NCBI GenBank assembly: GCA_011389515.1
Contig: JAABUA010000003.1
Location: 1 to 64,000, forward strand
Reading direction: 5' to 3'
DNA length: 64,000 nucleotides
Origin: Desulfobacteraceae bacterium
GTDB lineage: Bacteria > Desulfobacterota > Desulfobacteria > Desulfobacterales > Desulfosalsimonadaceae
In this document: piece by piece, positions 31,081 through 47,029 of the stretch
Layout: every line of letters begins with the position of its first letter
Position numbering within the stretch: the stretch's first letter is position 1
The notes under the pieces: generated by a model
The model's input: only the letters and a program-made list of their open reading frames with translations
Databases searched by the model: none
Told to the model about the DNA's origin: nothing
Made by a program: the position numbers and the translations under genes

Positions 31081-32592
31081 TCAATCCCCCACTCCTGGAA
31101 TGTAGACGGATACTATGGTTCCCTCGCCGGGTGTTGACTCGACGCGGATCTCGCCGCCGTGATCCTCTATAATCTTCCGGGTGATGAACAAACCGAGACC
31201 GGTCCCCTTGCTTCCCCGGGTAGAAAAAAACAGGTTGAACATGTTTTTCCTGGTTTCATCATCCATTCCGATGCCGTTGTCCGTTATGGCAAAACACACC
31301 CGGCCGTTTTCCGGATGCACCGACAGCACGATCTCATGGTCGCGCGCTTCTCTCTTGTCATCAATGCACGCACTGATCGCGTTTTCAAATACATTGATAA
31401 GCGCCTGGATCATGAAGTTGACGTCGATTGCCAATTCCCCCATGCCGTCTTTGAAATCCTTCCGAAATGCAATGCCATGGGACTGAATCCGGGCCTCCAC
31501 CACCTTGCTCAAATCATCGGCAAAAGCCTTGACCGGGACTCTTTCTTTTTTGAATTCCCTTTCCTTGGCGTAAAAAAGAATGTCCAGAACCACCTTTTTC
31601 AACCTTTCAGTGGTTTCCTTGACAATTTGCAATCCTTCTTTGGTGCGCTGGCCGTTTTCTTTGGCCATGCCGGAATTGATCAGGTACATACCGGAATCGA
31701 GTCCGGTTAAAAGCCCCTTTATGCCGTGGGAAAGGGAGCCGATCATAAGCCCCAGGGAGGAAAGGTGGTCCTGAAGCTCACTGACCTGCTCCAGGTCGGT
31801 GGCAACCGACATGACCTGTTCAACGGACTTCTCCAGCGCATCAAAAACAGGGAGCGTCCAGACAAGCACTTTTCGTGTCCGGCCGTCGATTGTAATGTAT
31901 TGGGTTTCATGCTGGCAGGATTTTCCCCGGGAAAATGTTTTTTTTACCGGGCAGTCCTGGCACGGCTCATCTCTTCGTTTGCATACATCGTAACAGTGTT
32001 TTCCTGCCGCATCGCCAAAGTTTTCGATAAAATAGGAGTTTGCCTCTATGATTCGCAGATCTTCGTCGTACAGGCTGATGTAGCAAGGCAGATGTTCGAG
32101 TACCCGCTGCATGGTGCTTGCCGTAGTTTGATCGGATTCTTCCGGTCGTCGGCCGCTTTTTTCAGAAAGCATGGCTTCAAGATTCCGGGTATACGCGTAA
32201 AACTGCCTGCGAACCGTAATTTTATCCCGGGCGCGCTTCAGGGCGCGTTCAAGGGCCTCCATGGCGATCGGCTTGGTAATGAAATCCGTGGCGTCAAACC
32301 GGAAGCTTTTTATGGCAAAGTTCATATCCCCGTGGCCGGTGATCATGATCACTTCTGTTTCCGGATCCATCCGCTTTATCTTTTCAAGCAGTTCAATACC
32401 GTCCATCCCGGGCATTTTGATATCGGTCAGGACAATGGGGGGTGAATGCTCTTTAAACAGATCCACCGCCTGTTGGCCGTCTTCCGCACAGATGACGGTA
32501 TACCCGAGATCCTCCAGGGACATTCGCATCACGTCGCGAACGTCCGCTTCATCGTCTGCGAGCAGTATGGTATTGTCCACCGTTTTTGGCAT
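31081..32592 (-). CDS. Receiver-PAS-histidine kinase, last gene of the Hdr operon
   Basis: 503 residues, soluble. The receiver (about 6-120) has LADDEAD, phosphoacceptor Asp in PIVLTDIKMPGMDG, Thr in MITGHGD and Lys in ITKPI. A PAS domain follows (about 170-290) with the cysteine cluster HCYDVCKRRDEPCQDCPVK. The kinase core shows the variant phospho-His box IGSLSHGIKGLLTGLD, then ITDNGIGMDD and GTGLGLFITRKI. It lies 34 bases after the stand-alone receiver gene. With the membrane kinase upstream it gives the Hdr operon a self-contained phosphorelay. The receiver at the N-terminus suggests it is controlled by another kinase, perhaps the one at 33002. Confidence 0.93.
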   Translation of the reverse strand: MPKTVDNTILLADDEADVRDVMRMSLEDLGYTVICAEDGQQAVDLFKEHSPPIVLTDIKMPGMDGIELLEKIKRMDPETEVIMITGHGDMNFAIKSFRFDATDFITKPIAMEALERALKRARDKITVRRQFYAYTRNLEAMLSEKSGRRPEESDQTTASTMQRVLEHLPCYISLYDEDLRIIEANSYFIENFGDAAGKHCYDVCKRRDEPCQDCPVKKTFSRGKSCQHETQYITIDGRTRKVLVWTLPVFDALEKSVEQVMSVATDLEQVSELQDHLSSLGLMIGSLSHGIKGLLTGLDSGMYLINSGMAKENGQRTKEGLQIVKETTERLKKVVLDILFYAKEREFKKERVPVKAFADDLSKVVEARIQSHGIAFRKDFKDGMGELAIDVNFMIQALINVFENAISACIDDKREARDHEIVLSVHPENGRVCFAITDNGIGMDDETRKNMFNLFFSTRGSKGTGLGLFITRKIIEDHGGEIRVESTPGEGTIVSVYIPGVGD

Positions 32593-32626: not shown

Positions 32627-32977
32627 TTACCCGATTGTATTTTTGACGATTTTCAGCAGCTCGTCCGGTTCGAACGGTTTATGGACAACCGCCACCGCAC
32701 TGTTGATGGCATGGGTGATGCCGGAAAGCCCGCTGACGACGATGACAGGAATATCTTTGTATTCCGGTTTTTTGGCGTATCTGCGATAAAAACGGGGCCC
32801 CCATTCCGGCATTTCAAGATCAAGGGTAATCAGGTCCGGCGTTTCTTTTTTCAACACCTCATATGCCTCGTTTCCGTCACTGGCACTGCACGTTTCATAA
32901 CCGGCATCCTCCAGGATGGCCGTTATGTATTTCACGATATTGGGGTCGTCATCCACGACCATGACTTTTTTTGCCAT
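32627..32977 (-). CDS. Stand-alone receiver protein (CheY-like)
   Basis: 116 residues, one receiver domain: MVVDDD, phosphoacceptor Asp53 in LITLDLEMP, Ser in VIVVSGL and Lys in VVHKPFEPDEL. The segment after the Asp is EMPEWGPRFYRRY instead of the usual MPGMDG, and the switch-region Thr is Ser. There is no output domain, so it acts by protein contact or as a phosphate shuttle. It lies 24 bases after the membrane kinase and 34 before the receiver-PAS kinase. GGAG precedes the ATG. Confidence 0.93.
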   Translation of the reverse strand: MAKKVMVVDDDPNIVKYITAILEDAGYETCSASDGNEAYEVLKKETPDLITLDLEMPEWGPRFYRRYAKKPEYKDIPVIVVSGLSGITHAINSAVAVVHKPFEPDELLKIVKNTIG

Positions 32978-33001: not shown

Positions 33002-34843
33002 TCATCTGTTTTGCGCCCCTGCACCTTCCGGAATCGGGGTCCCAACCGGAAACCGCATGGTGAAACAGACCCCCCCGGACTTTCTGTTTGATGTCTGTAT
33101 CGTACCTCCGCATTCCTTGATAATACCATAACTGATGGACAAGCCCAATCCGGTGCCGCTGCCAACGGGCTTGGTGGTGTAAAACGGCTCGAATATTTTG
33201 TCCATAATCGCTTCGGGAATCCCCTTTCCGGTGTCACAGATCTCCACAACCACGGCACCTTTTCTCATTCCTGTTGCAATGCTTATGGTTTTTTCTTCCG
33301 GTACTGCATGGGTATCACCCCATTTTTCCTCGATGGCATCCCTCGCATTGATCAGGATATTCACAAAAACCTGCTCAAGGCGGCTGGGGTTGGCCCGAAT
33401 CAGCGGCAGATTCTCTCCGGTCTCCCATTTGACATTAATCCCCCGGACTTTCAGCTGCTCGGAAAAAATTTCCGAGGCCATCTGGAGCACATGGTTTACC
33501 TCCACGCTTTCCAGGTCCAGCTCCGATTTCCGGGCAAACTGCCGCATATGGCCGATGATATTGCTGGCCCGGTCTACGTTGATATCGATTTTCTTCAACA
33601 TGTTTTCCATGATGTCTTTTTGCACCGCCCCGCCGGACTCGAATTTCTTGAGCATGAAACTGCTGGCGGTTTTCATAACGGAAAGCGGCTGATTCAGCTC
33701 ATGGGCGATACCGGTTGCCATTTCACCCAGTGTGGTCATTTTGCTTGCCTGTATCAGCTGCTGTTCGGTTTCAAGCTGCTGGGTGATATCCGAGGTCGTG
33801 ACCAGGAGCACTTCCCATTCCGGGTATGCGGTTTTGGCGGATCGGATATCCACGAACAGCCTGTTTCCCTGCCGGTCGAACTGTTTTACCTGGTGGAGGA
33901 ACGCTTCTTTTCGGATTTTTGATGCATACGTATCGCGTTCCTCTTTTTCAAAAAAATCAAGGAAGGATTTTCCCTTCAGTTCCTCCTGCGTGTAACCGTA
34001 AACCGGTTCTACCGAATCATTGCAGTCAAGGATCTTTATCGTATCCGGATCCAGAACAAATACCGGATTGGGAATATTGGAAAAGATCGCCTGGTAGCGC
34101 TGCTGCGAAGCCTCCAGCCTTTCTTCCAGCTGCCTTTTGAGAGTCACGTCCAGGCTCATTTCCATGGCTGCCACCACTTCGCCGTTTTCATCCATAATGG
34201 GAGCCGTACGGGCAACCCAGCGGATAGGCTTGCCGTCACGATTGTATCCGGTTTCCTCAAAGGTGTGGGATTTCCCGTCCTGGAATGTTTTTTCGACCGG
34301 ACAGCAGTCGCATTTTCGGGTACGGCCTTTATACACGGAATAGCAGAAATCCCCCTGCCGGGGATCAAATTTTTCAGCAAATTCATTGTTGTAGCGGATA
34401 AGACGAAGATTCCGGTCCTGGACGGTGATCAGGCAGGGAACGGTTTCAAAAAGATTCTGATATTCGCTGTGCTCCTGGGCAAGCTCCTGCTGCTTGCACG
34501 CAAGGAGGCTTGATACCGTTTCCATGCACCGGGAAAGGGCATCGATTTCATTTTCAGCGGATATGGGCAGGCTATTCCCAGAATTTTTTCCTGCAACCGT
34601 TAATGCCTTTTCGCAGGCGTTCAAAATCGGTTTTTCGATGTGAAAAACAAGCACCATCCGCATCAGAAACAGCCCCGCGGCAAGCAGTGCGCCACCGGCA
34701 AGAATAAGGACGACAGGGGTCTGCATAGGGAGCCCGGGATACAGAAGCAATCCGGTCCACGCCGCCATCAGCAGGATGAAAATCCCGCCGAGACGCAAAA
34801 TAAGGACAGGAAGGATGCGCTTTTCTGAAATACCATGGCTCAT
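33002..34843 (-). CDS. Membrane PAS-PAS sensor histidine kinase of the Hdr operon
   Basis: 613 residues. Two membrane helices (about 10-32 and 39-62) are followed by a HAMP-like linker, a PAS domain (about 120-235) with FCYSVYKGRTRKCDCCPVEK, a second PAS (about 240-360), HisKA with His in GIAHELNQPLSVMK, and HATPase with CDTGKGIPE and GSGTGLGLSISYG. There is almost no periplasmic sensor loop, so the signal is probably intracellular, with the Cys-rich PAS a candidate redox sensor. It lies 14 bases after hdrB and is thus joined to a redox operon. Receivers available in the same operon are the small protein at 32627, the hybrid at 31081 and the receiver inside HdrA. Confidence 0.93.
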   Translation of the reverse strand: MSHGISEKRILPVLILRLGGIFILLMAAWTGLLLYPGLPMQTPVVLILAGGALLAAGLFLMRMVLVFHIEKPILNACEKALTVAGKNSGNSLPISAENEIDALSRCMETVSSLLACKQQELAQEHSEYQNLFETVPCLITVQDRNLRLIRYNNEFAEKFDPRQGDFCYSVYKGRTRKCDCCPVEKTFQDGKSHTFEETGYNRDGKPIRWVARTAPIMDENGEVVAAMEMSLDVTLKRQLEERLEASQQRYQAIFSNIPNPVFVLDPDTIKILDCNDSVEPVYGYTQEELKGKSFLDFFEKEERDTYASKIRKEAFLHQVKQFDRQGNRLFVDIRSAKTAYPEWEVLLVTTSDITQQLETEQQLIQASKMTTLGEMATGIAHELNQPLSVMKTASSFMLKKFESGGAVQKDIMENMLKKIDINVDRASNIIGHMRQFARKSELDLESVEVNHVLQMASEIFSEQLKVRGINVKWETGENLPLIRANPSRLEQVFVNILINARDAIEEKWGDTHAVPEEKTISIATGMRKGAVVVEICDTGKGIPEAIMDKIFEPFYTTKPVGSGTGLGLSISYGIIKECGGTIQTSNRKSGGVCFTMRFPVGTPIPEGAGAQNR

Positions 34844-34857
34844 CGTTTTTTTTCCAA

Positions 34858-35739
34858 TTACGCTGTCTGCCGGGCCATCAGTTTATTCCGGAAGGCATCC
34901 GGTACGCACAGGTTGAGGTCCATCCGGACCTGATCATCGGGAAGGCCCATGGCCAGGCCCATCAACTGCGGCAGATAGAGCACAGGAATGTCGTAGTGCA
35001 TTTGCCGCTTTTTGGAAGCCCTCTTCTGGTATGCTTCCAGGTTCATCTGACACATGGGGCACACCGTTACCACGGCATCGGCATCCTGTGCAGTTTCCAG
35101 GAGCCCGGCAACCAGTTCGATGCCCGCATCGGGTGCCGTGCTCATGAGAGAGGCGCCGCAACATCTGCCCCCCATGTCCCATTCATAGACAGAAGCCCCC
35201 AGGGCTGTAATGATCGGTTCCATGGAAACAGGTTCTTCCGGGTCATCGAAAACCGCATACGGCCGCAGGCACTGACACCCGTAGTACGGGGCGATGCGAA
35301 GCCCTTCCAGGGGCTTTATCACCCGTGATGCGATATCGCTGACAGGGATGTCGGAGGCCAGAACATCCAGCAGGTGGCGCGTTTTCAGTTTCCCTTTGAG
35401 CACCAGGTTTTCGGTTTCCAGAACCTGGTTGACTTTCTTCAGAAGAGAGGGATCAAGCCTGGTTTCATGTTCGACCCGTTTCAGGTTCAGGTAGCATGCG
35501 CTGCACGGGACGAGAATATCGCAGTTGAGCTTCATCTTTTCTGCAACGGCGATATTCCTGGCGGGAAGCGCAAAGGAAAGCAGATGACTGATGCCTTCGG
35601 CCGCAGTCGCACCGCAGCACGTCCAGTCATCGAGTTCAACCAGCTCCACCCCCAATGCGCCCAGAACCGCCATGGTGGAAATGCTGTATTCCGCTGCCGT
35701 ACCTTCAAGGGAGCAGCCCGGATAATAAATATATTTCAT
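34858..35739 (-). CDS. hdrB: Heterodisulfide reductase subunit B-like (two CCG domains)
   Basis: 293 residues. Two copies of the cysteine-rich CCG domain: YYPGCSLEGTAAEY, WTCCGA and PCSACYLN in the first half; YYGCQCLRP, RCCGASLM and CPMCQMNLEAY in the second. In methanogens this subunit holds the noncubane [4Fe-4S] clusters that cleave CoM-S-S-CoB. Non-methanogens use HdrB-like subunits for other disulfides or as electron-transfer partners. All ligand cysteines appear present. Its start overlaps the hdrC stop by 4 bases, the usual C-B coupling. Confidence 0.94.
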   Translation of the reverse strand: MKYIYYPGCSLEGTAAEYSISTMAVLGALGVELVELDDWTCCGATAAEGISHLLSFALPARNIAVAEKMKLNCDILVPCSACYLNLKRVEHETRLDPSLLKKVNQVLETENLVLKGKLKTRHLLDVLASDIPVSDIASRVIKPLEGLRIAPYYGCQCLRPYAVFDDPEEPVSMEPIITALGASVYEWDMGGRCCGASLMSTAPDAGIELVAGLLETAQDADAVVTVCPMCQMNLEAYQKRASKKRQMHYDIPVLYLPQLMGLAMGLPDDQVRMDLNLCVPDAFRNKLMARQTA

Positions 35740-36326
35740 GATTGATCCTCAATTTCCTTTGCTTTTCTGAAAAGGGCATCCAGTTTTCCGCTGCCCTTTG
35801 ACGGAATTTCAAAAGACACCTTTCCCTTCGCCATGAGCTTCATGCCAAGAGGCGTGAATTTCAAAGGAATCATCGGGTTTTTCATGGACATGAAATACAG
35901 GGTCATGAATTCCATCTCCCGGACCCTGCCATGGCGCCGGACGCTTTCCATAAAGCTCTGGTAAAAACGGACGCTTCTCCTGTAAATATAGATATTTTCC
36001 GCTGCAGCCACCTGCTTCAGCAGGCTCATGGCATCCGTAAGGGGGAGCCCCCGGGGGCACCGGAGGGTGCACGAGTAACAGGTGGAACAAAGGGCGAACG
36101 TCCGGCTTTTGAAAATCTCTTCCCCGTTGTGGGTCAGCAAAAGGCGCCACAAATGCCGGGGGGAGGAATCCATCGCCCAGGCGTTGGGACAGGACCCGCT
36201 GCACGTGCCGCACTGTATGCAGGCCAGCAGCATTTTCCTTACAGGCGCAAGCCTTTCTTCAAGGGTTTTTGGCTTCCCCGGTTCGCCGCTGCCGTCGATT
36301 GCTGCTTTCATGGAATTTCCTTTCAT
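35736..36326 (-). CDS. hdrC: Heterodisulfide reductase subunit C-like ferredoxin
   Basis: 196 residues. Two [4Fe-4S] motifs: CIQCGTCSGSCPNA and CSTCYSCTLRCPRG. The C-terminal half (VRFYQSFMESVRRHGRVRE onwards) is the helical extension of HdrC. It passes electrons from HdrA to HdrB. The ATG at 36326 overlaps the stop of the HdrA gene (ATGA); a second ATG at 36311 has AAAGGA upstream and could be the true start, shortening the protein by five residues. Confidence 0.93.
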   Translation of the reverse strand: MKGNSMKAAIDGSGEPGKPKTLEERLAPVRKMLLACIQCGTCSGSCPNAWAMDSSPRHLWRLLLTHNGEEIFKSRTFALCSTCYSCTLRCPRGLPLTDAMSLLKQVAAAENIYIYRRSVRFYQSFMESVRRHGRVREMEFMTLYFMSMKNPMIPLKFTPLGMKLMAKGKVSFEIPSKGSGKLDALFRKAKEIEDQS

Positions 36327-39300
36327 TCAATCACCATATCAATCATGTCGAGCATTCGACCGTCAAAAAAACCATCGACAACCGAAGCGCTGTTCGGACA
36401 TTCAGAGGCACAGTTTCCACATCCCTGACACATGGCTGCATTAACGATGACTTTCTGCAAATCCAGGTCAATGGATCTTGCGCCATAGGGGCAGACATCG
36501 ATGCAGCGCTCGCACAGGGAGCAAAGGCTTTGCCTGACCCTTGCGGTTACCCCGGCTCTGGACAAGGCGCTTTTTGTCAGTATTCTCATTGCCCGCTGTG
36601 CCGCAGCCTCGGCCGTTGCAACGGACTCTGTCACGGACCTGGGGGAAAGCGCGATGCCGCATGCAAACACCCCTTCCTTCAGGCTGTCCACCGGCCGCCA
36701 TTTGGGTTCTGCTTCCTGAAAAAACCCGTCCGCATCGACATGGGCGCCATAAGCGGCGGCAAGGGATTCCGGCAGGGAAGGCACAATGCCTGTCGCCAGA
36801 ACCAAAAGGTCGGCGTTTATCTCGACATTGGCATCCAGAAGCGGCTCATATGCGCTTATTTTCACGTTGGAACCATCACCGGGTACCGAAACGACCGGCT
36901 TTTTATCTACGGTGTACGGGATAAATACGGCCCCGGCCTTTCGCGCTTCCGTAAACCAGGTTTCCGAAAACCCGTAAGACATCATGTCCCGGTACAATAC
37001 GTATATGGAAAGATCGGCGTTTTCCTTTTTCATGTGGAGAATATGCTTCAGGGTGGAGGCGCAGCAGACCCGGCTGCAGTAATTTCTCGGTTCCTCCCTC
37101 GAACCGGCGCACTGAATCATCACAACCGTATCCATTGATGTAACGTCGATCTGTTTGTCTGAGACCTTCTGCTCGAGTTCCTTCTGGGTGATAATGGCGT
37201 CATTTTCCCCGTGGCTATACATATTTGCCGGGGCTTCGCCCCCACCGGTGGCGATAATGGCCACACCGTGATGGAGCGTTTCCACCGAAGACTGCGAGCC
37301 GGTTTCAATGGTCGTGAAAAAGTTTCCCACCTCGCCAAAAGCGCTCATTACGCTGCTGTCTACATGGATGGTAACCTGCGGATGCTTTTCAAGGCGCTGG
37401 CGAACACTGTCCATGAATGCATGGACATCGTACCCTTCAATCGTACGGGCAAGCCAGTTGAGATTGCCTCCGAGCTCCGGGTCATTTTCAACAAGCGTCA
37501 CCGGGTATCCGTGGTCCGCGATTGCAAGCGCAGCAGTCATGCCGGCAATGCCGCCGCCGACCACCAGCGCTTTTCGCGCCACCGGAACCGATGTTTTCGG
37601 AAGCGGATCGACCCCCCGCAGCCGGGAGATGCCGGATCGGAGATTTCGCTCCATCGCCTTCTGTATATAGGACGCTTCGGCATCCGCATACCTGAACGCC
37701 GGCGCGCGGATATCCTCGACCTCCATCAAAACAGGATTCATCAGCACCTTCTCCCCCAACTCCTTTAGCCGGCGGGCATGGGCGTACGGCATGCAAGCGC
37801 CGACCAAAAGACGGTTGTACCCTTTGGCCTTGGCTTTTTCTACCAGCAGATCCCAGCCTTCCGTCGTGCATATCCTGGGGATGGTAAAAACGTTTTCCAC
37901 AACCGGATCGGTCTTCAGGTCGGCCGCAATGGCCTTCATGTCGATACCTCCGGGCAGCGTTGATCCGCATTCGCAAAGGACGACCCTGACTTTCGGCGCC
38001 TGGATAGACACATCGATGTATTCCGGCGCATCACCCGTTACCTCGGCCATCCCGCGGCCGGCGGAATGGAGCGCGACAGACGCGCAAAGGGATGCCGAGC
38101 CGGCGGAAATGACGGATTCCGCAATATCTTTGGGTCCGGAAAAAGCCCCTCCGAAAAAAATCCCCTCTCTTTTTGTTTTCGATGGCGCAAAAGGCTCTGC
38201 CAGGGCAAACCCCCACTGGTTCAGATCGAAATCCGCTGTTTGAGCCAGTTTATCCATCCCTCCGGCAGGCTGCTGTCCTGTGGACAGTACCACCATGTCA
38301 AACGCCTCTTCTATCCGTTGGCTGTTTTCACCCGGGTAGGAAATCATCAGTTTTCCGGTTTTTTCATCCAGGTAGACCGTATGCACACGCCCCCGAGTAA
38401 ACCGTATAGCGTGATCTTTTTCCGCGCTGTCCCGGAAACGCTGAAAGGTTTTGCCGAAGGTTCGCATGTCCATGTAAAAAATGGTCGCATCCAGATCTTC
38501 CGGGCCTTTCTCCTTGGCCAGCATGGCTTCCTTGATGGCATACATGCAGCAGAAACCGGAGCAAAAATCCGCATCGGTCTGCAGATCCCGTGACCCTACG
38601 CACTGGATCCAGGCAATTTTCCGGACGGGCTCTCCATTGGACGGCCGTACCAATTGACCGCCGCCGGGGCCGGTGCCGCTGATCAAACGCTCGAATTCCA
38701 GACCTGTCACCACGTCGGGGAACTTCTTGTATCCAAAGGTGTTTTTCCCCGTGGACGGATCATAGCCTTCCGTCCCCCCGCAGAACACAACCGCGCCGGC
38801 TTCCACTTCCTCACCCCTGGAAGCCTCCTGGATTTCATATACGTCGATGACCTTTGAAACCAAATCTTCCGGATCAAAAGGCTTCATGAGATAATCCATG
38901 GCGCCGGTTTTCATTGCCTCGACCGCAGTTTCAACGGTCGCGTAGGCGGTCATCATGACAACCGCCATATCCGGGAAGGTCTCCATGGTTTTTTTAAGCA
39001 CTTCCACCCCGTCCATGCCGGGCATCTTGATGTCCAAAAGCATCATCTTAAAGGGCTGCTTTTTCATAAGATCAAGCGCCTCTTCGCCGGAACCGGCCGT
39101 TTCAACAGAAAAACCATCTTCGACAAGCCATTCCTTGATGGAATCGCGCACGGTGTATTCATCGTCGACCACAAGGACGCCAAAATCCTGACGCCCCTGC
39201 CTAAAAAGGCGGATCGCACCCGTGGGGCACGCAGTAACGCACTCACCACAGCGTGTGCAGGCAGCGGGATCAATGACATACGTATTGGGCATCATATGCG

Positions 39301-39751
39301 GCACCGGCAAATAGACGGCCTTTCTTTCAGACAGACCGGCGTTGAATTCGTCTGCAACGTCAACCGGGCAAACCGCTGCACATTCACCGCAGCCGATGCA
39401 TTTTTCCGGATCAACAAAGCGCGGCTGTTCTCGCAGCCGGACCATAAAACTGCCCGCCTCCCCCTCGATTCCAACCACTTCCGTGGACAGGCGGATGTCT
39501 ATGTTTTCATGAAACAGCCCTTTTCTCAGACAATACTGGGAGCCGGCATCCCGTTCCACAAGGGGGAGCATCTTGCACATGCCGCATTGATTGGTCGGGA
39601 ACTGGTTGTCCAGTTGACTGAGAACCCCCCCAATGTGCGGGGCCCTGTCCACCAGGGTCACCCCGTACCCGGTTTCGGCCAGGTCCAGTGCGGCGCGGAT
39701 GCCGCTGATGCCGCCCCCGACGACAAGGGCGCGTCCGATCTTGGGTTTCAT
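36323..39751 (-). CDS. hdrA: Double HdrA flavoprotein with an embedded response-regulator receiver domain
   Basis: 1142 residues. Order: FAD Rossmann motif VVGGGISGIRAALDLAE (9-26), two [4Fe-4S] motifs CIGCGECAAVC (118-128) and CTRCGECVTAC (165-175), a complete receiver (about 190-305), the rest of the first FAD module (about 315-570), an HdrA N-terminal domain (VVLCECG, about 590-715), a second FAD module (VVGGGIAGMTAALAIAD from 730), and C-terminal clusters CSLCERCIDVC and CQGCGNCASEC. The receiver keeps Asp196-Asp197, phosphoacceptor Asp240 in LLDIKMPGMDG, Thr268 and Lys290. HdrA is the electron-bifurcating hub of Hdr complexes; an inbuilt receiver implies control by phosphorylation. AAGGAG lies before the ATG; the stop overlaps hdrC. 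Confidence 0.93.
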   Translation of the reverse strand: MKPKIGRALVVGGGISGIRAALDLAETGYGVTLVDRAPHIGGVLSQLDNQFPTNQCGMCKMLPLVERDAGSQYCLRKGLFHENIDIRLSTEVVGIEGEAGSFMVRLREQPRFVDPEKCIGCGECAAVCPVDVADEFNAGLSERKAVYLPVPHMMPNTYVIDPAACTRCGECVTACPTGAIRLFRQGRQDFGVLVVDDEYTVRDSIKEWLVEDGFSVETAGSGEEALDLMKKQPFKMMLLDIKMPGMDGVEVLKKTMETFPDMAVVMMTAYATVETAVEAMKTGAMDYLMKPFDPEDLVSKVIDVYEIQEASRGEEVEAGAVVFCGGTEGYDPSTGKNTFGYKKFPDVVTGLEFERLISGTGPGGGQLVRPSNGEPVRKIAWIQCVGSRDLQTDADFCSGFCCMYAIKEAMLAKEKGPEDLDATIFYMDMRTFGKTFQRFRDSAEKDHAIRFTRGRVHTVYLDEKTGKLMISYPGENSQRIEEAFDMVVLSTGQQPAGGMDKLAQTADFDLNQWGFALAEPFAPSKTKREGIFFGGAFSGPKDIAESVISAGSASLCASVALHSAGRGMAEVTGDAPEYIDVSIQAPKVRVVLCECGSTLPGGIDMKAIAADLKTDPVVENVFTIPRICTTEGWDLLVEKAKAKGYNRLLVGACMPYAHARRLKELGEKVLMNPVLMEVEDIRAPAFRYADAEASYIQKAMERNLRSGISRLRGVDPLPKTSVPVARKALVVGGGIAGMTAALAIADHGYPVTLVENDPELGGNLNWLARTIEGYDVHAFMDSVRQRLEKHPQVTIHVDSSVMSAFGEVGNFFTTIETGSQSSVETLHHGVAIIATGGGEAPANMYSHGENDAIITQKELEQKVSDKQIDVTSMDTVVMIQCAGSREEPRNYCSRVCCASTLKHILHMKKENADLSIYVLYRDMMSYGFSETWFTEARKAGAVFIPYTVDKKPVVSVPGDGSNVKISAYEPLLDANVEINADLLVLATGIVPSLPESLAAAYGAHVDADGFFQEAEPKWRPVDSLKEGVFACGIALSPRSVTESVATAEAAAQRAMRILTKSALSRAGVTARVRQSLCSLCERCIDVCPYGARSIDLDLQKVIVNAAMCQGCGNCASECPNSASVVDGFFDGRMLDMIDMVIE

Positions 39752-39795: not shown

Positions 39796-40941
39796 TTAGT
39801 GCTTCACCTCAACCACTTCGGCAAATTCGTCTTCCTTGAAAACCGCAAGGGGCGGTTCTTCTTCCAGACTTCTGCCCGGTTCATACTCAAACGCCGCCTG
39901 GGTCTGGCTTGCGGTTGCGGTAAACAGCTCTACAAGGGGAATGTCGTTGGGGCAGGCATTGCTGCACTGCCCGCACCCCACGCACGCCAGGGACATGTGG
40001 GCCATCCGGGTAATATGGTAAAAAACCGTGTCCGTGGGCATCCGGATCTTGCCCTTGCGCCGGGCCCACCGGAGATACTGATACGGGTCATGGTCGAAAA
40101 CATCGGTGACAAAAACACATTCCCGGCAATAGCATACCGGACAGGCCACGCGGCAGTTGTAGCAGTTGATGCACCCGGACAGATATGCTGCAAGCTTTTC
40201 AGGGGTATCGGTTTTTGAACGGGTATCTTCAAACATCTCGTTTTTGAATTTCTCCCGAACGGCAACCAGAGACTCGATTGTCTCCTCCCGCTTGCCCGGC
40301 GCATCCTGCTCTTTTAATCCCAGCTTGTCAAAAAGCGCCTCCCCCTTTTCGGTTTCTGCTGAAACCAGAAACTGCCTGTCGATATCCATGCCGAATATGC
40401 CGATGGCCAGATCCGCGCCATTCGGAACCATATGGGTGCAGGCCCTGCAAGCCGCCGACAAATCCACCTCGCCATCAAAACGGGTTTCCCCGGACAGCAC
40501 CCCCTTGAGAAACCTGGCGGTCGAAGTTTCCGGATCCTTTTCTGCGAATTTTTTGTAGTCGGTATTTTTAAAGGAACCCGCACAGTCAATGCCCGCAATG
40601 ACAATATCTTCCATGGAACCCTGCTTGAGCTTCACCAGTTCGATATGCGCCCTGATTTCGCATGGACGGAGAACGACCACAACCTTTCCACCGGCCGGCC
40701 TTTTGGTCAGCCGGGATACCAGGCGCGCGGCGTTCATGGGAAATGCGGGGGCAAAAGGATCGATTTGATCCACCTGCTCCGGGTTCGTGACCAGCGTCTG
40801 CATGACCATGTCCCCCGCAGGAAGACGCATGGGTGCCATAATGGCGCTGATCTCATCCTGCCCGAGCATGGATCTGAAAAAGGATGCAAGCGATGTCTGC
40901 AGGTTCTGATCCGCTGCATCGCATAAAGATGTTTTTGCCAT
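39796..40941 (-). CDS. FrhB/FdhB-like iron-sulfur flavoprotein subunit
   Basis: 381 residues. The first half resembles the F420-hydrogenase/formate-dehydrogenase beta subunit domain (VVVVLRPCEIRAHIELVKLK, IAGIDCAGSF). The second half carries a dense cysteine block CINCYNCRVACPVCYCREC and a second cluster motif CVGCGQCSNACPND. FrhB-like subunits carry FAD and exchange hydride with F420 or NAD(P), or pass electrons to ferredoxin. In this lineage they recur beside HdrA and MvhD, presumably as the electron-input module. GGAGG precedes the ATG. It lies 46 bases after mvhD and 44 before the receiver-bearing hdrA. Confidence 0.85.
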   Translation of the reverse strand: MAKTSLCDAADQNLQTSLASFFRSMLGQDEISAIMAPMRLPAGDMVMQTLVTNPEQVDQIDPFAPAFPMNAARLVSRLTKRPAGGKVVVVLRPCEIRAHIELVKLKQGSMEDIVIAGIDCAGSFKNTDYKKFAEKDPETSTARFLKGVLSGETRFDGEVDLSAACRACTHMVPNGADLAIGIFGMDIDRQFLVSAETEKGEALFDKLGLKEQDAPGKREETIESLVAVREKFKNEMFEDTRSKTDTPEKLAAYLSGCINCYNCRVACPVCYCRECVFVTDVFDHDPYQYLRWARRKGKIRMPTDTVFYHITRMAHMSLACVGCGQCSNACPNDIPLVELFTATASQTQAAFEYEPGRSLEEEPPLAVFKEDEFAEVVEVKH

Positions 40942-40987: not shown

Positions 40988-41410
40988 TCAGACGACCGCC
41001 GCATGCTTTGCCTCGTTGGGACCGAGCTCCTTGATCTCGGAAACCATATCCCGTATCGTCCGGGCAAACTGGATTCCGTCGGAAGCGCCGATCCACGTCA
41101 ATTTGAGCCGTTTTTCATCAAAGCCATACTGGGGCAGAATCGCCTTGAGCAGTTTCATGCGCCTGCGCGCCTTGTAATTCCCGTTGATGTAATGGCAGTC
41201 ACCGGGATGGCACCCGCTGACCAGAACCGCATCGGCCCCTTCCAGAAAGGCCTTTATAATATACTTGGGATCCACCATGCCCGTGCACATTACGCGGATA
41301 AGCCGTACATTGGTTGGATAGGACTGCCGGGATGTCCCTGCGAGATCCGCCGCCGTATAGGTGCACCAGTTGCAAACAAATGCTATGATGGTCGGTTCAA
41401 AATCTTCCAT
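40988..41410 (-). CDS. mvhD: MvhD-like [2Fe-2S] electron-transfer subunit
   Basis: 140 residues with the family cysteine pattern FVCNWCTYTAADLAG, VMCTGMVDP and SGCHPGDCHY, closing with LTWIGASDGIQFA. MvhD links the electron-donating enzyme (hydrogenase or formate dehydrogenase) to HdrA. No hydrogenase large or small subunit is in the window, so another donor such as the FrhB/FdhB-like protein next door is implied. GGAGG with a second AAGG precedes the ATG; 83 bases separate it from the NfnB-bearing hdrA. Confidence 0.95.
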   Translation of the reverse strand: MEDFEPTIIAFVCNWCTYTAADLAGTSRQSYPTNVRLIRVMCTGMVDPKYIIKAFLEGADAVLVSGCHPGDCHYINGNYKARRRMKLLKAILPQYGFDEKRLKLTWIGASDGIQFARTIRDMVSEIKELGPNEAKHAAVV

Positions 41411-41493: not shown

Positions 41494-44400
41494 TTAGAGT
41501 CCTACCACGTGAATCGTGTCGATAATGCCCTCCAGCTCGGCGAGCAGCTGACCCGGCTTGAAGTGCCGGACCTGGGCCGCGTTGCTCGGACAGAACCCGG
41601 AACAGCTGCCGCATCCCTTGCACAAGGCTTCATTGACCACGGATATGCTTTGGCGCGGATCGAACTCAATGGCGCCGTATGCGCAAAGCCCGATGCACAC
41701 CTGGCATCCGGCGCAGATATCCGGATCAATCCAGGAAATGGCGGAAGGCACCTCGACCACGCCGCGATGCGCCAATGAAAGCGCCTTTGCCGCAGCGCCG
41801 GAGGCCTGGGCCGTGGTATCGGGAATATCCTTGGCCGACTGGCACGCCCCTGCCAGAAAAACCCCGTCCGTGGAGGTATTCAACGGGCCAAGCTTTGGAT
41901 GCTCTTCCAGAAAAAACCCATCCTTACCCTGGCTGATGCCAAACAGGCTGCAGATGCTGTGGGCATCGGGACGGGCCTCCATGGCCAGGCAGAGCACGAC
42001 CATGTCCACCGGGACCCGGATACGCTTGTTCAACAGGGTATCTTCCCCGATGGCGATAAGCTTTCCTTTTTCCTCCGGCCGGATGGCCTTGTCGGTGATC
42101 TCGGCTACCTTGCCCCGTATAAAATTGGTTCCCTCCTCCTGGCAGCGGCGGTAGAATTCTTCATACCCTTTGCCGAAACAACGCATATCAATATAAAATT
42201 CATACACTTCAGTATCATGCCCCACCTTTTCCTTCAGCAGGTGGGAGTATTTCAGGGCATACATGCAGCAAACCCGCGAGCAGTATTCATGATAATTGGC
42301 ATCCCGGCTGCCGACGCAGTGAATCAGGGCGACGCTTTTGGGCATGCCTTCAAATTCCCCCTTCTCATTTCGCATGAGAATCTGACCGCCCGTCGGACCC
42401 GTGGCATTGTTTAGCCTTTCGAATTCTAGGCTTGTGAACACGTTGGGGTACTTGCCATATCCGTACTGCTTGAGCGGTTTTGGGTCCATCAGGTCAAAAC
42501 CGGTGGCAATAACGATGCTTCCCACTTTTACTTCCAGGTCCTGGGCCTGCATTTCATGATTGATGGCATTGGGCTGACAGGCCTTGAGGCATTCGTAGCA
42601 TTCGGAACAGACGCCGCATTCCAGGCATCGCGATGCCTCGAGAAGCGCCTGTTCTTCGGTGTAGCCCTCGTACACTTCACAAAAATTCGCTTCTCGCTCT
42701 TCGGGGTCCAGGCATTTGACCGGAACCCTGTTCTGCCGGATCTCCGCGATGGTTTCCTCCGGGAATTCAGGCCTTGCAAAATCCCACTTCTTTTCCCGCC
42801 CCTCATAAAGGTCCATGCCGTTGACGTACCGGTAGATGCTTTCTGCCGCCTCTTTTCCACAGGCAACCGCCTCGACCACGGACTTGGGGCCGTAAAGCGC
42901 ATCTCCACCGGCAAAAACCCATTCAAGGGGTGTCTGAAGGGTAACCGGATCGGCTTCAAGACCGCCCCGTGAAGTGACGGAAACCTTTTGCGATGCAGCG
43001 AAATCAAGAATTGCGGCCTGTCCGATGGATATGATGACGGTATCGGCAAAATAGGGTTGACAGGCATTTTCATCATAGACGGGGTTGAAACGGCCGTCGT
43101 CATCAAATACCGCCATGCAGGATTTGAACTCGAGTCCGGATACCCGGCCGGAAGCCTTGTCGACAAAAAAGGCTTTCGGGCCATAGCTGTTGACGATTTG
43201 GATATTCTCGTCGATTGCGTCTTTGATCTCGTGCTCCCATGCAGGCATTTCGTCCCGTTTTTCCAGGCATATCATGGTGACGTTCTGCGCCCCCGTGCGC
43301 TTTGCAGTGAGGGCCACATCCACGGCAACGTTGCCGCCGCCGATGACCAGCACGTCTTTTCCGATGTTCACCTCTTTTCCCATGGCCACATCCCGCAGGA
43401 AGTCAACCCCCTGGAGAACCCCGTCGGTATCCTCGTTCTCGACCCCCAGTTTGCGCCCCCCGTGCAGACCCACCGCCATAAAAACCGCTTTACACCCATC
43501 TTCTTTAAGGCTTTCCAGGGTAATGTCCGTTCCGAATGAAACGCCGGTTTTTATGGTTACCCCCAGTTTTTCAATCTGCTCGATCTCATGGGAAAGGATA
43601 TCGCGGGGAAGCCGGTATTCGGGAATGCCAACGGCCATCATGCCGCCGGCAACCGGCAGTTTTTCAAAGATGGTAACTGCATACCCCTTCAACGCCAGAA
43701 AACAGGCGGCGGAAAGCCCGGCCGGACCGGACCCGATAACCGCCACTTTTTCATCCCCCGCTTTCGGCGCTTCAGAAACAACGGCTTCGGCTTCTTTGCC
43801 CCAGTCCGCCAGAAAACGGTGCAGCTCCCGAATCGCCAGCGGCTGGTCCACATCGTTTCTGGTGCATTCCCCTTCGCAGGGATGGTGGCATACACGGCCG
43901 CATACCCCTGGAAACGGATGCGCCTGCCGGAAAAGCCCCAGCGCTTCAGCGTATTTTCCCTGGTTCATCAGCGCGATATACCCCTGAATGGATACGTGGG
44001 CCGGGCACGTGGCCTTGCAGGGCGCGGTACCCCGCTTGTCAATGACATAGGAGATGGGAACGGCCTGGGGAAAAGACCGGTATATGGCGTGTCGCTCCTT
44101 GAGCCCGACATCCCATTCACTGGGCCGGGTAATGGGGCAGACTTTTTCGCACTCGCCGCACCCGGTGCACACCCCTTCTGTTACGTAGCGGGGCTTGCGG
44201 TGAACCGTCACGTTGTAGTTGCCGATGTACCCGTTAACGTCAATTACCTCGGAATAGGTCATTAAATTGATATTGGGCTGCTGCCCCACTTCCACCATAA
44301 CGGGCGTACCGATGCATGCTGCGCAGTCCAGCGTCGGGAACGTCTTGTCGAACTGGAGCATATGCCCTCCGATCGTGGGATCTTTTTCAACCAGGTAGAC

Positions 44401-44898
44401 CTTGTTCCCCGCCCTTCCGATATCCAGGGCCGCCTGCATACCCGCAATGCCGGCGCCGACAACCATGATATCGGGATGCACGGACACCTGCCGCGTTTCC
44501 AGCTTTTCATGGTGGCATACGCGGTTCACCGCACCGGCCACCTGGGTCTTCGCCTTCCGCGTGGCGTCATCGGGGTCCGCCGTGACCCAGGACACCTGCT
44601 CCCTGACCGATGCCATCTGAAAATAATAGGGATTGATGCCGGACCGTTGACATACACCCTGAAACGTCTTTTCATGGAGGCGCGGTGAACACGAGGCAAC
44701 CACTACCCGGTTGAGTCCGTATTCATGGATGTCCTTTTCAATCATTTCCTGTCCGGGATCAGAACACATGAATTTGTAATCCCTGGCGACAACCACGGAC
44801 CGGAGCGTTCTGGCAAATGCGGCCACCTCTTCAACACGCACCTTTCCGGCAATGTTGATACCGCAATGACAAACATAACAGCCAATTTTTAATGTCAT
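41494..44898 (-). CDS. hdrA: HdrA flavoprotein with an embedded NfnB/GltD-like oxidoreductase domain
   Basis: 1134 residues. The HdrA N-terminal domain (1-140; YVCHCGINIAG, VVASCSPRLHEKTF) is followed by FAD motif VVGAGIAGMQAALDIG (146-161) and cluster motif CTGCGECEKVC (244-254). A GltD/NfnB-like module occupies about 290-775, with its own CPAHVSIQGYI, CGRVCHHPCEGEC, FAD motif VIGSGPAGLSAAC (387-399) and NAD(P) motif VIGGGNVAVDVAL. HdrA then resumes with CLECGVCSECYEC, the second FAD half and C-terminal clusters CAGCQVCIGLC and CKGCGSCSGFC. The fusion offers an NAD(P)H site directly on HdrA, suggesting confurcation between NAD(P)H and ferredoxin. GAGGGAAG before the ATG overlaps the stop of the TusA-like gene. 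Confidence 0.93.
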   Translation of the reverse strand: MTLKIGCYVCHCGINIAGKVRVEEVAAFARTLRSVVVARDYKFMCSDPGQEMIEKDIHEYGLNRVVVASCSPRLHEKTFQGVCQRSGINPYYFQMASVREQVSWVTADPDDATRKAKTQVAGAVNRVCHHEKLETRQVSVHPDIMVVGAGIAGMQAALDIGRAGNKVYLVEKDPTIGGHMLQFDKTFPTLDCAACIGTPVMVEVGQQPNINLMTYSEVIDVNGYIGNYNVTVHRKPRYVTEGVCTGCGECEKVCPITRPSEWDVGLKERHAIYRSFPQAVPISYVIDKRGTAPCKATCPAHVSIQGYIALMNQGKYAEALGLFRQAHPFPGVCGRVCHHPCEGECTRNDVDQPLAIRELHRFLADWGKEAEAVVSEAPKAGDEKVAVIGSGPAGLSAACFLALKGYAVTIFEKLPVAGGMMAVGIPEYRLPRDILSHEIEQIEKLGVTIKTGVSFGTDITLESLKEDGCKAVFMAVGLHGGRKLGVENEDTDGVLQGVDFLRDVAMGKEVNIGKDVLVIGGGNVAVDVALTAKRTGAQNVTMICLEKRDEMPAWEHEIKDAIDENIQIVNSYGPKAFFVDKASGRVSGLEFKSCMAVFDDDGRFNPVYDENACQPYFADTVIISIGQAAILDFAASQKVSVTSRGGLEADPVTLQTPLEWVFAGGDALYGPKSVVEAVACGKEAAESIYRYVNGMDLYEGREKKWDFARPEFPEETIAEIRQNRVPVKCLDPEEREANFCEVYEGYTEEQALLEASRCLECGVCSECYECLKACQPNAINHEMQAQDLEVKVGSIVIATGFDLMDPKPLKQYGYGKYPNVFTSLEFERLNNATGPTGGQILMRNEKGEFEGMPKSVALIHCVGSRDANYHEYCSRVCCMYALKYSHLLKEKVGHDTEVYEFYIDMRCFGKGYEEFYRRCQEEGTNFIRGKVAEITDKAIRPEEKGKLIAIGEDTLLNKRIRVPVDMVVLCLAMEARPDAHSICSLFGISQGKDGFFLEEHPKLGPLNTSTDGVFLAGACQSAKDIPDTTAQASGAAAKALSLAHRGVVEVPSAISWIDPDICAGCQVCIGLCAYGAIEFDPRQSISVVNEALCKGCGSCSGFCPSNAAQVRHFKPGQLLAELEGIIDTIHVVGL

Positions 44899-45265: not shown

Positions 45266-45281
45266 TGCAACAGCAGTGCCA
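45266..45281 (-). promoter_or_regulatory. Sigma-54 promoter of the Hdr operon
   Basis: On the minus strand the sequence is TGGCACTGCTGTTGCA, an essentially perfect -24/-12 element (TGGCAC-N5-TTGCA). Transcription would begin near 45255, leaving about 100 bases of leader before the TusA-like start at 45154. The divergent gene at 45641 encodes a sigma-54 activator. Confidence 0.85.
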
Positions 45282-45640: not shown

Positions 45641-47029
45641 ATGCATGAAAAAGACCTGAATGTTTACTGGAAAACCGTGGTGGATACGATCAAGGACGGG
45701 GTGATGATCGTTGACAAAAGAGGGGTGATTGTTTCTGTCAACCGGGCCATGTCCGAAATCACGGGCTATGACAGGGATGAACTGCTGGGGAAGCCCTGCA
45801 CGTTTCTGAACTGCGACATATGCAACGTGGTGCTTGAAAAAAACGGGGAGCACTGGTGCCATTTGTTCAAAACGGGTTTTCTCAACATGCGTGAGGCGGT
45901 AATCCAGAAAAAAAATGCGGAGATCATCCCGGTTCTCAAGAATGCTTCCATTTTGCGGGACGGCGAGGACAATGTGATCGGCGCCGTGGAGACCATTACC
46001 GACATCACGGAACTCAATGAAAAGGAAACCCAGATCAGCGCCCTTCGCAGCGAATTGCTCCTGGAAAACAGTTTTCACGGACTTCTGGGAAATTCTCTGC
46101 CCATGCAGCAGGTATACGACCTGATCGAAAACGCGGCCCTCTCCGATGCGCCCGTGATCATTTTCGGGGAAAGCGGAACCGGCAAGGAACTGGTCGCACA
46201 GGCCATCCACAACATCAGCCGGCGAAGCGACAATCCCTACGTAAAGGTGAATTGCGCCGCTTTAAACGATTCCCTTCTCGAAAGCGAACTGTTCGGCCAC
46301 CGGAAAGGCGCGTTTACCGGGGCGTACCAGGATCGAATGGGGCGCTTTGAATCTGCCGGAAACGGAACGATTTTCCTCGATGAAATCGGTGATTTGCCGC
46401 TTTCCACACAGGTCAAACTGCTGAGAGTTCTCGAAGACCATGTAATCGAGCGCGTGGGAGACAATCAGCCGCTAAAGATCGATGTGCGGATCATCACCGC
46501 CACCAACCGCGATCTGCAGAAGCTGATGGAGGAAGGAAAGTTCAGGGATGATCTTTTTTACCGCATCAACGTGATCCCGATCCGGGTGCCCCCCTTGAGA
46601 AAAAGGGGCGGAGACATATCCCTGCTGGCAGACGCATTTTTTCAGCGGAACCGCCTGAAAAGCGACAAGCCCGTAAACGGCATTTCAAACGCGGCCATGG
46701 AAGCCCTCGTCAATTATTCCTGGCCCGGGAATGTGCGGGAACTCAAAAGCGCCTTTGAATATGCTTTTGTTACATGCGATGACGCCATGATCCGGCCGGA
46801 ACACCTCCCCCCGGACATTTTGCATACCAATGGAGCCCGGAAAGGATCGCAGGAAAAAACAGCCCGGAACCGGGACGAGAAAAACAGGCAGGAGCTGATC
46901 GATGCCCTTCGCGAAGCCGAAGGAAACCAGTCCAGGGCAGCGGAAATATTAGGGGTTTCCCGGGTGACGGTCTGGAACCGGATAAAGCGCTACAACATTG
47001 CCGTTCTTCGGGATGTGGCGGAAAACTGA
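45641..47029 (+). CDS. PAS-AAA-Fis sigma-54-dependent activator, divergent from the Hdr operon
   Basis: 462 residues. A PAS domain (about 8-125) holds Cys53, Cys58, Cys61 and Cys73 in CTFLNCDIC and HWCHLF. The AAA+ domain has Walker A GESGTGKE (176-183), the sigma-54 contact loop GAFTGA (223-228), Walker B GTIFLDEIG (242-250) and the arginine-finger region. The Fis-type HTH ends the protein (NQSRAAEILGVSRVTVWNRI). There is no receiver domain, so the PAS itself is probably the sensor, perhaps for redox. Given the sigma-54 promoter at 45266 and the palindromes between, it is the prime candidate activator of the Hdr operon. AGAGGAA lies before the ATG. Confidence 0.95.
   Translation: MHEKDLNVYWKTVVDTIKDGVMIVDKRGVIVSVNRAMSEITGYDRDELLGKPCTFLNCDICNVVLEKNGEHWCHLFKTGFLNMREAVIQKKNAEIIPVLKNASILRDGEDNVIGAVETITDITELNEKETQISALRSELLLENSFHGLLGNSLPMQQVYDLIENAALSDAPVIIFGESGTGKELVAQAIHNISRRSDNPYVKVNCAALNDSLLESELFGHRKGAFTGAYQDRMGRFESAGNGTIFLDEIGDLPLSTQVKLLRVLEDHVIERVGDNQPLKIDVRIITATNRDLQKLMEEGKFRDDLFYRINVIPIRVPPLRKRGGDISLLADAFFQRNRLKSDKPVNGISNAAMEALVNYSWPGNVRELKSAFEYAFVTCDDAMIRPEHLPPDILHTNGARKGSQEKTARNRDEKNRQELIDALREAEGNQSRAAEILGVSRVTVWNRIKRYNIAVLRDVAEN

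Follow-up and report, generated by a model that had tools for sequence, protein, structure and literature searches.

A receiver domain inside an HdrA-type flavoprotein

The control of flavin-based electron bifurcation in cells is an open question, and the locus described here poses it in a particular form: what is a response-regulator receiver domain doing inside an HdrA-type hub flavoprotein? The gene, here called hdrA-REC, was found in 64,000 nucleotides of a Desulfobacteraceae bacterium (positions 1 to 64,000 of contig JAABUA010000003.1, forward strand), and this whole stretch is referred to as the window. The open reading frame runs from ATG to stop with no interruption and encodes 1142 amino acids. 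Its parts in the window are as follows (FAD, flavin adenine dinucleotide).

36323..39751 (-): hdrA-REC, tandem HdrA-like flavoprotein of 1142 amino acids with an inserted receiver
39182..39751 (-): residues 1-190, first half of FAD module A and inserted 2[4Fe-4S] ferredoxin domain
38849..39178 (-): residues 192-301, receiver domain (Asp196, Asp197, Asp240, Thr268, Tyr287, Lys290), from Pfam, structure match and conservation
39032..39034 (-): Asp240 codon, predicted phosphoacceptor
38054..38809 (-): residues 315-566, second half of FAD module A, from predicted-structure match
37607..38002 (-): residues 584-715, part resembling the HdrA N-terminal domain (Cys593, 595, 628, 653)
36572..37576 (-): residues 726-1060, FAD module B, without inserted ferredoxin domain
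36377..36544 (-): residues 1070-1125, C-terminal 2[4Fe-4S] domain

The original prediction, made from the letters of the sequence, had placed a complete receiver after the second ferredoxin motif (Cys165/168/171/175), and both the domain and the residues named for it were recovered. Pfam Response_reg (PF00072) matches residues 192-301 with 111.8 bits against a cut-off of 30.2 (E 2.5e-32), flanked by Pfam matches to FAD-module and ferredoxin families, and the active-site residues D196, D197, D240, T268 and K290 are all present. In the predicted structure residues 188-312 adopt the (beta-alpha)5 fold and superpose on 3crn_B with Z 23.3 and a root-mean-square deviation (rmsd) of 1.1 Å over 125 residues. 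The full active-site set (DD-D-T-Y-K) is complete in 52 of 58 aligned relatives, while three of the other six are wholly or partly truncated there. Mean column identity is 0.74 in the receiver against 0.74, 0.66 and 0.48 in the HdrA parts, so the receiver equals the best-conserved of them. A chance Pfam match was rejected on score, structure match and conservation. Nor is the receiver of the window protein an aspartate-less or atypical one, unlike those of the relatives at loci L122, L123, L133 and L071, where the phosphoacceptor or the acidic pocket has been lost. Taken together, these data support a genuine and conserved receiver in an HdrA-type flavoprotein, predicted from its residues to be competent for phosphorylation.

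The receiver starts about 17 residues past the last cysteine of the inserted ferredoxin domain (Cys118/121/124/128 and Cys165/168/171/175), whose eight cysteines are invariant across 22 receiver-bearing proteins. Alignment against receiver-less relatives shows a clean insertion between '..CPTGAI.L....R..F' and '..EVGAVVL'. At the other end the receiver helix alpha5 (294-311) leads, in the predicted structure, almost straight into FAD-domain strand 314-318.

Comparison with solved HdrA chains and the AlphaFold model (predicted local distance difference test score 86.9, predicted template modelling score 0.86) revealed a feature absent from the original prediction, namely that hdrA-REC is a tandem, pseudo-dimeric HdrA. 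Module A with the receiver (1-566) is followed by the N-terminal-like part (584-715), module B (726-1060) and the C-terminal ferredoxin domain (1070-1125). Model residues 3-565 superpose on the HdrA core 149-576 of 8rwn_A (Z 28.5, rmsd 2.1 Å, 421 of 428 residues); the receiver stands outside this match as a domain of its own and leaves the HdrA core of the model undisturbed. Residues 584-1142 match the whole HdrA chain 7bkd with Z 32.5. The protein has the FAD/thioredoxin reductase-type core with an inserted 2[4Fe-4S] domain, and the N-terminal FeS domain, the Cys197 equivalent and the C-terminal ferredoxin domain are spread over both halves. The receiver shares the first half with the sole inserted ferredoxin domain of the protein. 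By residue offset Cys59 corresponds to Cys197 of HdrA 5odc, so that the first half could complete the N-terminal-type cluster (Cys593, 595, 628, 653) of the second, an arrangement already put forward for the fused HdrA of anaerobic methanotrophic archaea (PMC9012536). The curated equivalog cut-offs for CoB-CoM heterodisulfide reductase were not reached (NF040770, 681.7 against 1100; NF041778, 557.2 against 1400), hence we call the protein HdrA-like and not the methanogen enzyme.

Distribution and origin of the receiver

The same architecture was found in more than 50 relatives from independent genomes, with the receiver at the same place, which rules out a frameshift or an assembly join as its cause; no close relative has lost Asp240. 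Of five genomes of the same genus, four have a full-length relative (in one it is split across two contigs), as do several further genomes of the family and many families within the order. Among 297 genomes sampled evenly from the phylum, nine gave a match at 44% identity or more that was full-length or nearly so, the window's own genome among them. The named carriers are mainly Desulfobacterales, a sulfate-reducing order that plays an important part in marine sediments, and include the cultured isolate Desulfospira joergensenii DSM 10085; records labelled Syntrophobacteraceae, Desulfovibrio and Desulfomicrobium were also found.

When the receiver columns were left out of the tree, all 34 receiver-bearing proteins used formed one clade with support 1.0, and the degenerate receivers were nested inside it. 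We therefore conclude that there was one insertion event, in intact form. A tree of the receivers alone had too few columns to resolve and served only for the nesting of the receivers of a second protein family, described next.

Proteins of about 441 amino acids with a receiver between two universal stress protein domains (USP-REC-USP) were found at L050:11694-13016, L051:14808-16145, L054:10827-12149 and L091:15169-16500, three of them directly downstream of hdrB. Their receiver and linker (R..F/Y) group among the HdrA receivers, and it seems from these sequences that the receiver module has moved between HdrA and the universal stress protein.

A second Hdr-receiver fusion is encoded in the own genome on contig C95 (L058:4363-8757). 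It is a 1465-residue HdrL with two intact N-terminal receivers, and it adjoins a REC-kinase, a further kinase and sigma-54 regulators. No such fusion was found in the 59 relatives searched, and the true one is found only in the window's own genome; apparent REC-HdrL fusions in L174 and L175 were rejected as a separate upstream receiver reading frame joined across a stop. The own genome also holds HdrA paralogues (G000 contigs C107 and C139; L006, L008) with one in-frame TGA in the ferredoxin/FAD half. This is likely to be selenocysteine, which has been reported for HdrA of other Desulfobacteraceae (PMC5109826, PMC2702500).

The intact receiver and the PAS kinase

The original prediction had two kinases and a free receiver in the operon of hdrA-REC, and we confirmed them in the same tightly packed gene string.

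33002..34843 (-): PASHK, PAS-PAS histidine kinase (His381)
32627..32977 (-): free receiver, DVU0259/DivK family (NF045717, 186.5 bits against a cut-off of 160)
31081..32592 (-): RECPASHK, REC-PAS-histidine kinase (His289)

Two hydrophobic N-terminal stretches suggest that PASHK is membrane anchored. Its four PAS cysteines (137, 167, 178, 181) are invariant in 53 orthologs, which suggests a candidate metal, iron-sulfur or redox sensor.

Counting only loci with enough flank, PASHK was near 43 of 52 with an intact receiver and near 1 of 18 in which the receiver is degenerate or missing (p 6e-9). At the genome level an ortholog was present in 24/24 genomes with an intact receiver and in 9/35 of the others (p 2e-9), although some kinases may be hidden by genome incompleteness. 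Two of the decay calls, for genomes G012 and G023, are doubtful, as they were made after the kinase result was known and the G023 contig is without the first part of the receiver; with both counted as intact the figures are 24/26 against 9/33 (p 3e-7).

Decay of the receiver goes with absence of the kinase. Genome G012 has kept the operon, but the 12.5 kb that follow hdrB contain no kinase gene and the genome search gave no PASHK ortholog. Compared with its sister G020 of the same genus, its receiver is 70% identical and the rest of the protein 87% (p 2e-6), with D197E, E198A and other changes in the receiver, while in nine of ten other close pairs the receiver was more conserved than the rest, and equal in the tenth. 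The acidic pocket is lost in L122, L123, L133 and genome G331; no PASHK was found near the first three loci, nor in the genome of G331. In the clade labelled Desulfovibrio/Desulfomicrobium, which is without the kinase, decay has affected the receiver and spared the HdrA domains. Because it is the receiver that decays where the kinase is absent, and not the HdrA domains, the pattern supports phosphorylation as its probable function, with PASHK or its module as the likely donor.

Several observations weigh against this conclusion. Nine intact loci had no PASHK in the stretch searched, although in G057 and G192 it is found elsewhere in the genome. The nine searched genomes that have the kinase without an intact HdrA receiver, together with L156, the sole counter-example among the loci, where a receiver-less tandem HdrA stands beside PASHK, RECPASHK and DivK orthologs, tell us that PASHK has other partners and is not dedicated to HdrA. 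The correlation of receiver and kinase distances is weak; a partial r of 0.25 (p 0.002) with the ATPase part of the kinase was the one significant result of nine comparisons, and the DHp part, the expected specificity region, gave 0.09, which is not significant. Further, the degenerate receiver of L133 keeps a complete (beta-alpha)5 pattern in a high-confidence model, as read from predicted secondary structure, with HdrA parts and no receiver chain among the PDB matches listed. As decayed receivers are kept folded, the domain may also have a structural role without phosphorylation. We thus rejected an exclusive pairing of kinase and receiver. The kinase link of the original prediction holds in that receiver integrity depends evolutionarily on the PASHK of the operon, and it has to be loosened where exclusivity is concerned.

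The operon and its partners

The remaining features of the locus are given below.

41494..44898 (-): hdrL, HdrA with a GltD/NfnB-like NAD(P)H module inserted in the ferredoxin domain
40988..41410 (-): mvhD (FlpD, [2Fe-2S] electron-entry subunit), E 3.1e-54
39796..40941 (-): FrhB/FdhB-C-like iron-sulfur protein
35736..36326 (-): hdrC-like, with a 4-base overlap with the hdrA stop
34858..35739 (-): hdrB-like, two CCG domains
45641..47029 (+): divergent PAS sigma-54 activator
45266..45281 (-): sigma-54-type -24/-12 match with 1 mismatch, TGGCACTGCTGTTGCA, upstream of hdrL and facing the operon

The gene string is thus hdrL, mvhD, the fdhB-like gene, hdrA-REC, hdrC, hdrB, the PAS kinase, the DivK-type receiver and the REC-PAS kinase; from hdrL to RECPASHK, neighbouring genes are separated by, or overlap by, a few to 84 bases. 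The order hdrL-mvhD-fdhB-hdrA is nearly constant among relatives, and the partner set is modular: HdrBC was found in 55 loci and a QmoC-HdrCB fusion in 9 loci, never both. The fusion, which is HdrF-like and stands in place of hdrCB (L106:2594-4957 and eight other receiver-HdrA loci), is likely a menaquinone-linked version of the partner. Two relatives of the same genus have retained the sigma-54-like site that precedes hdrL, and such a site was found in 8 of 53 orthologous upstream regions compared with 4 of 1060 shuffles.

The hdrL product carries its GltD-like module between the two ferredoxin motifs, which had gone unseen in the original prediction; within the hdrA-REC insert neither Fer4_20 nor GltD gave a match. 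As both proteins have an insert in the ferredoxin domain, we regard this domain as a repeated insertion site.

Proposed mechanism and alternatives

On balance we lean towards a scheme in which a single receiver insertion and PASHK-driven phosphorylation of Asp240 serve to tune the low-potential branch of the Hdr complex. A single insertion placed the receiver at the loop closing the inserted ferredoxin domain, within the first half of a tandem HdrA, in an ancestor of the receiver-bearing sulfate-reducer relatives, which are mainly Desulfobacterales. PASHK would phosphorylate Asp240, possibly via RECPASHK and the free receiver, and this would alter the alpha4-beta5-alpha5 side of the receiver. 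The change of shape may then pass via alpha5 (294-311) into FAD-domain strand 314-318, and via the short linker from the last ferredoxin cysteine into the ferredoxin domain. In this way the low-potential branch of a bifurcating or confurcating complex, made of HdrL-MvhD-FdhB-HdrA with HdrCB or the QmoC-HdrCB protein, would be adjusted, and the most likely target is the position or docking surface of the ferredoxin domain, where electrons would leave. Such tuning would agree with where the receiver is inserted and with the conformational gating known for Hdr complexes (PMC12350162). In methanogen Hdr, electrons are anticipated to leave for ferredoxin through the inserted ferredoxin domain, and the arms of HdrA move during turnover (PMC9012536; PMC12350162). 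We infer, within this scheme, that phosphotransfer takes place, that ferredoxin reduction is gated and that the four-cysteine PAS of PASHK senses redox state. More tentative, and to us slightly doubtful, is the stronger proposal that a redox-sensing PAS kinase directly and reversibly gates an electron-bifurcating respiratory complex through the receiver beside the ferredoxin exit, independent of transcription.

An unlikely alternative, though one with several points in its favour, is that the receiver controls assembly, docking or location, in that its phosphorylated face recruits ferredoxin, HdrC, the membrane kinase or another HdrA, thereby selecting the complex to be built. Docking at the ferredoxin exit is predicted for the side that bears the receiver, and in methanogens this is where HdrA is bound by the polyferredoxin MvhB or FmdF (PMC12350162); the modular partners described above would suit such control, and the persisting fold of the degenerate receivers suggests an interaction role. 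The long alpha5 helix and the short linkers of the model, however, point to mechanical coupling with the FAD domain and not to a free recruitment arm.

Signalling could also run in reverse, so that the redox state of HdrA sets gain or loss of the receiver phosphate, and the kinases, DivK and the sigma-54 regulator are informed of electron flux by the enzyme, which would act as a phosphate sink or trigger enzyme. In favour of this, kinases, free receiver, sigma-54 activator and sigma-54-like site surround the operon. The kinase module is also present in genomes without receiver-HdrA (G008, G036, G041, G045) and so has targets of its own, and the nesting of USP-REC-USP receivers among HdrA receivers suggests that one kinase serves several receivers. 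Against it, a separate sensor seems to exist already, given the invariant cysteines of the kinase PAS, and the inside of an enzyme is an unusual site for a mere sink; we judge reverse signalling to be quite improbable. That the receiver is a passive structural insert without phosphorylation function, as its retention in clades with a broken active site might suggest, is extremely improbable, since the active site is complete in most relatives and decays where the kinase is missing, and a passive insert would not track a kinase.

If phosphorylation of Asp240 does tune the complex, the cell may raise or lower an energy-saving enzyme by direct signalling. A receiver in the hub flavoprotein that is intact only together with a kinase would directly link two-component signalling to respiratory electron flow, and D240 offers a single-residue handle for switching, in the purified enzyme or in vivo.

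Comparison with known systems

Two HdrA cores per chain are likewise found in the tandem or fused HdrA3/HdrA4 of anaerobic methanotrophic (ANME) archaea and in HdrA of the Moorella MetFV-HdrABC-MvhD complex (PMC9012536). There the N-terminal FeS domain and Cys197 are on complementary halves, which is taken as an internal heterodimer (PMC9012536). Unlike these proteins, which are without a receiver, hdrA-REC has Cys59 and the inserted ferredoxin domain in a first half that is without the N-terminal domain, which instead precedes the second half.

HdrL and HdrA9-11, with their GltD/NfnB-like insert (PMC2702500, PMC9012536), resemble hdrA-REC in that this ferredoxin region of HdrA has taken up a whole domain. 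In those proteins a redox module lies between the two ferredoxin motifs and brings in NAD(P)H chemistry, whereas the insert of hdrA-REC is a signalling module after the second motif. The same gene content and layout were described in 2009 for locus VIII of Db. autotrophicum HRM2 (hdrL/hdrA4, fdhB, hdrB, hdrC), and response-regulator, kinase and CheY-like genes are among those numbered in the HRM2 loci figure (PMC2702500). The main text of that paper notes no receiver in HdrA4, the word 'receiver' occurring 0 times, and our comparison with HdrA4 rests on this description. In the open-access literature searched we found such descriptions of loci only, and none pairing HdrA with a receiver.

With the Hdr that reduces CoM-S-S-CoB the present system has in common the core fold, the FAD module, the inserted ferredoxin exit and the MvhD and HdrB/C partners; that enzyme is without a receiver and is a homodimer rather than a tandem.

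Response regulators with enzymatic output are known, with CheB, GGDEF or PP2C outputs and annotated fusions of a receiver to thioredoxin reductase, and to our knowledge these carry the receiver at one end. As in hdrA-REC, their receiver is tied to an enzyme instead of a DNA-binding domain; unlike them, hdrA-REC has it within the FAD module, in a respiratory enzyme that is predicted to bifurcate electrons. Tandem HdrA, inserts at the ferredoxin domain (HdrL, HdrA-NfnB) and receivers with enzyme outputs are thus each known, while their combination was not found in the open-access literature, and we predict that hdrA-REC is a response regulator with an electron-bifurcating complex as its output.

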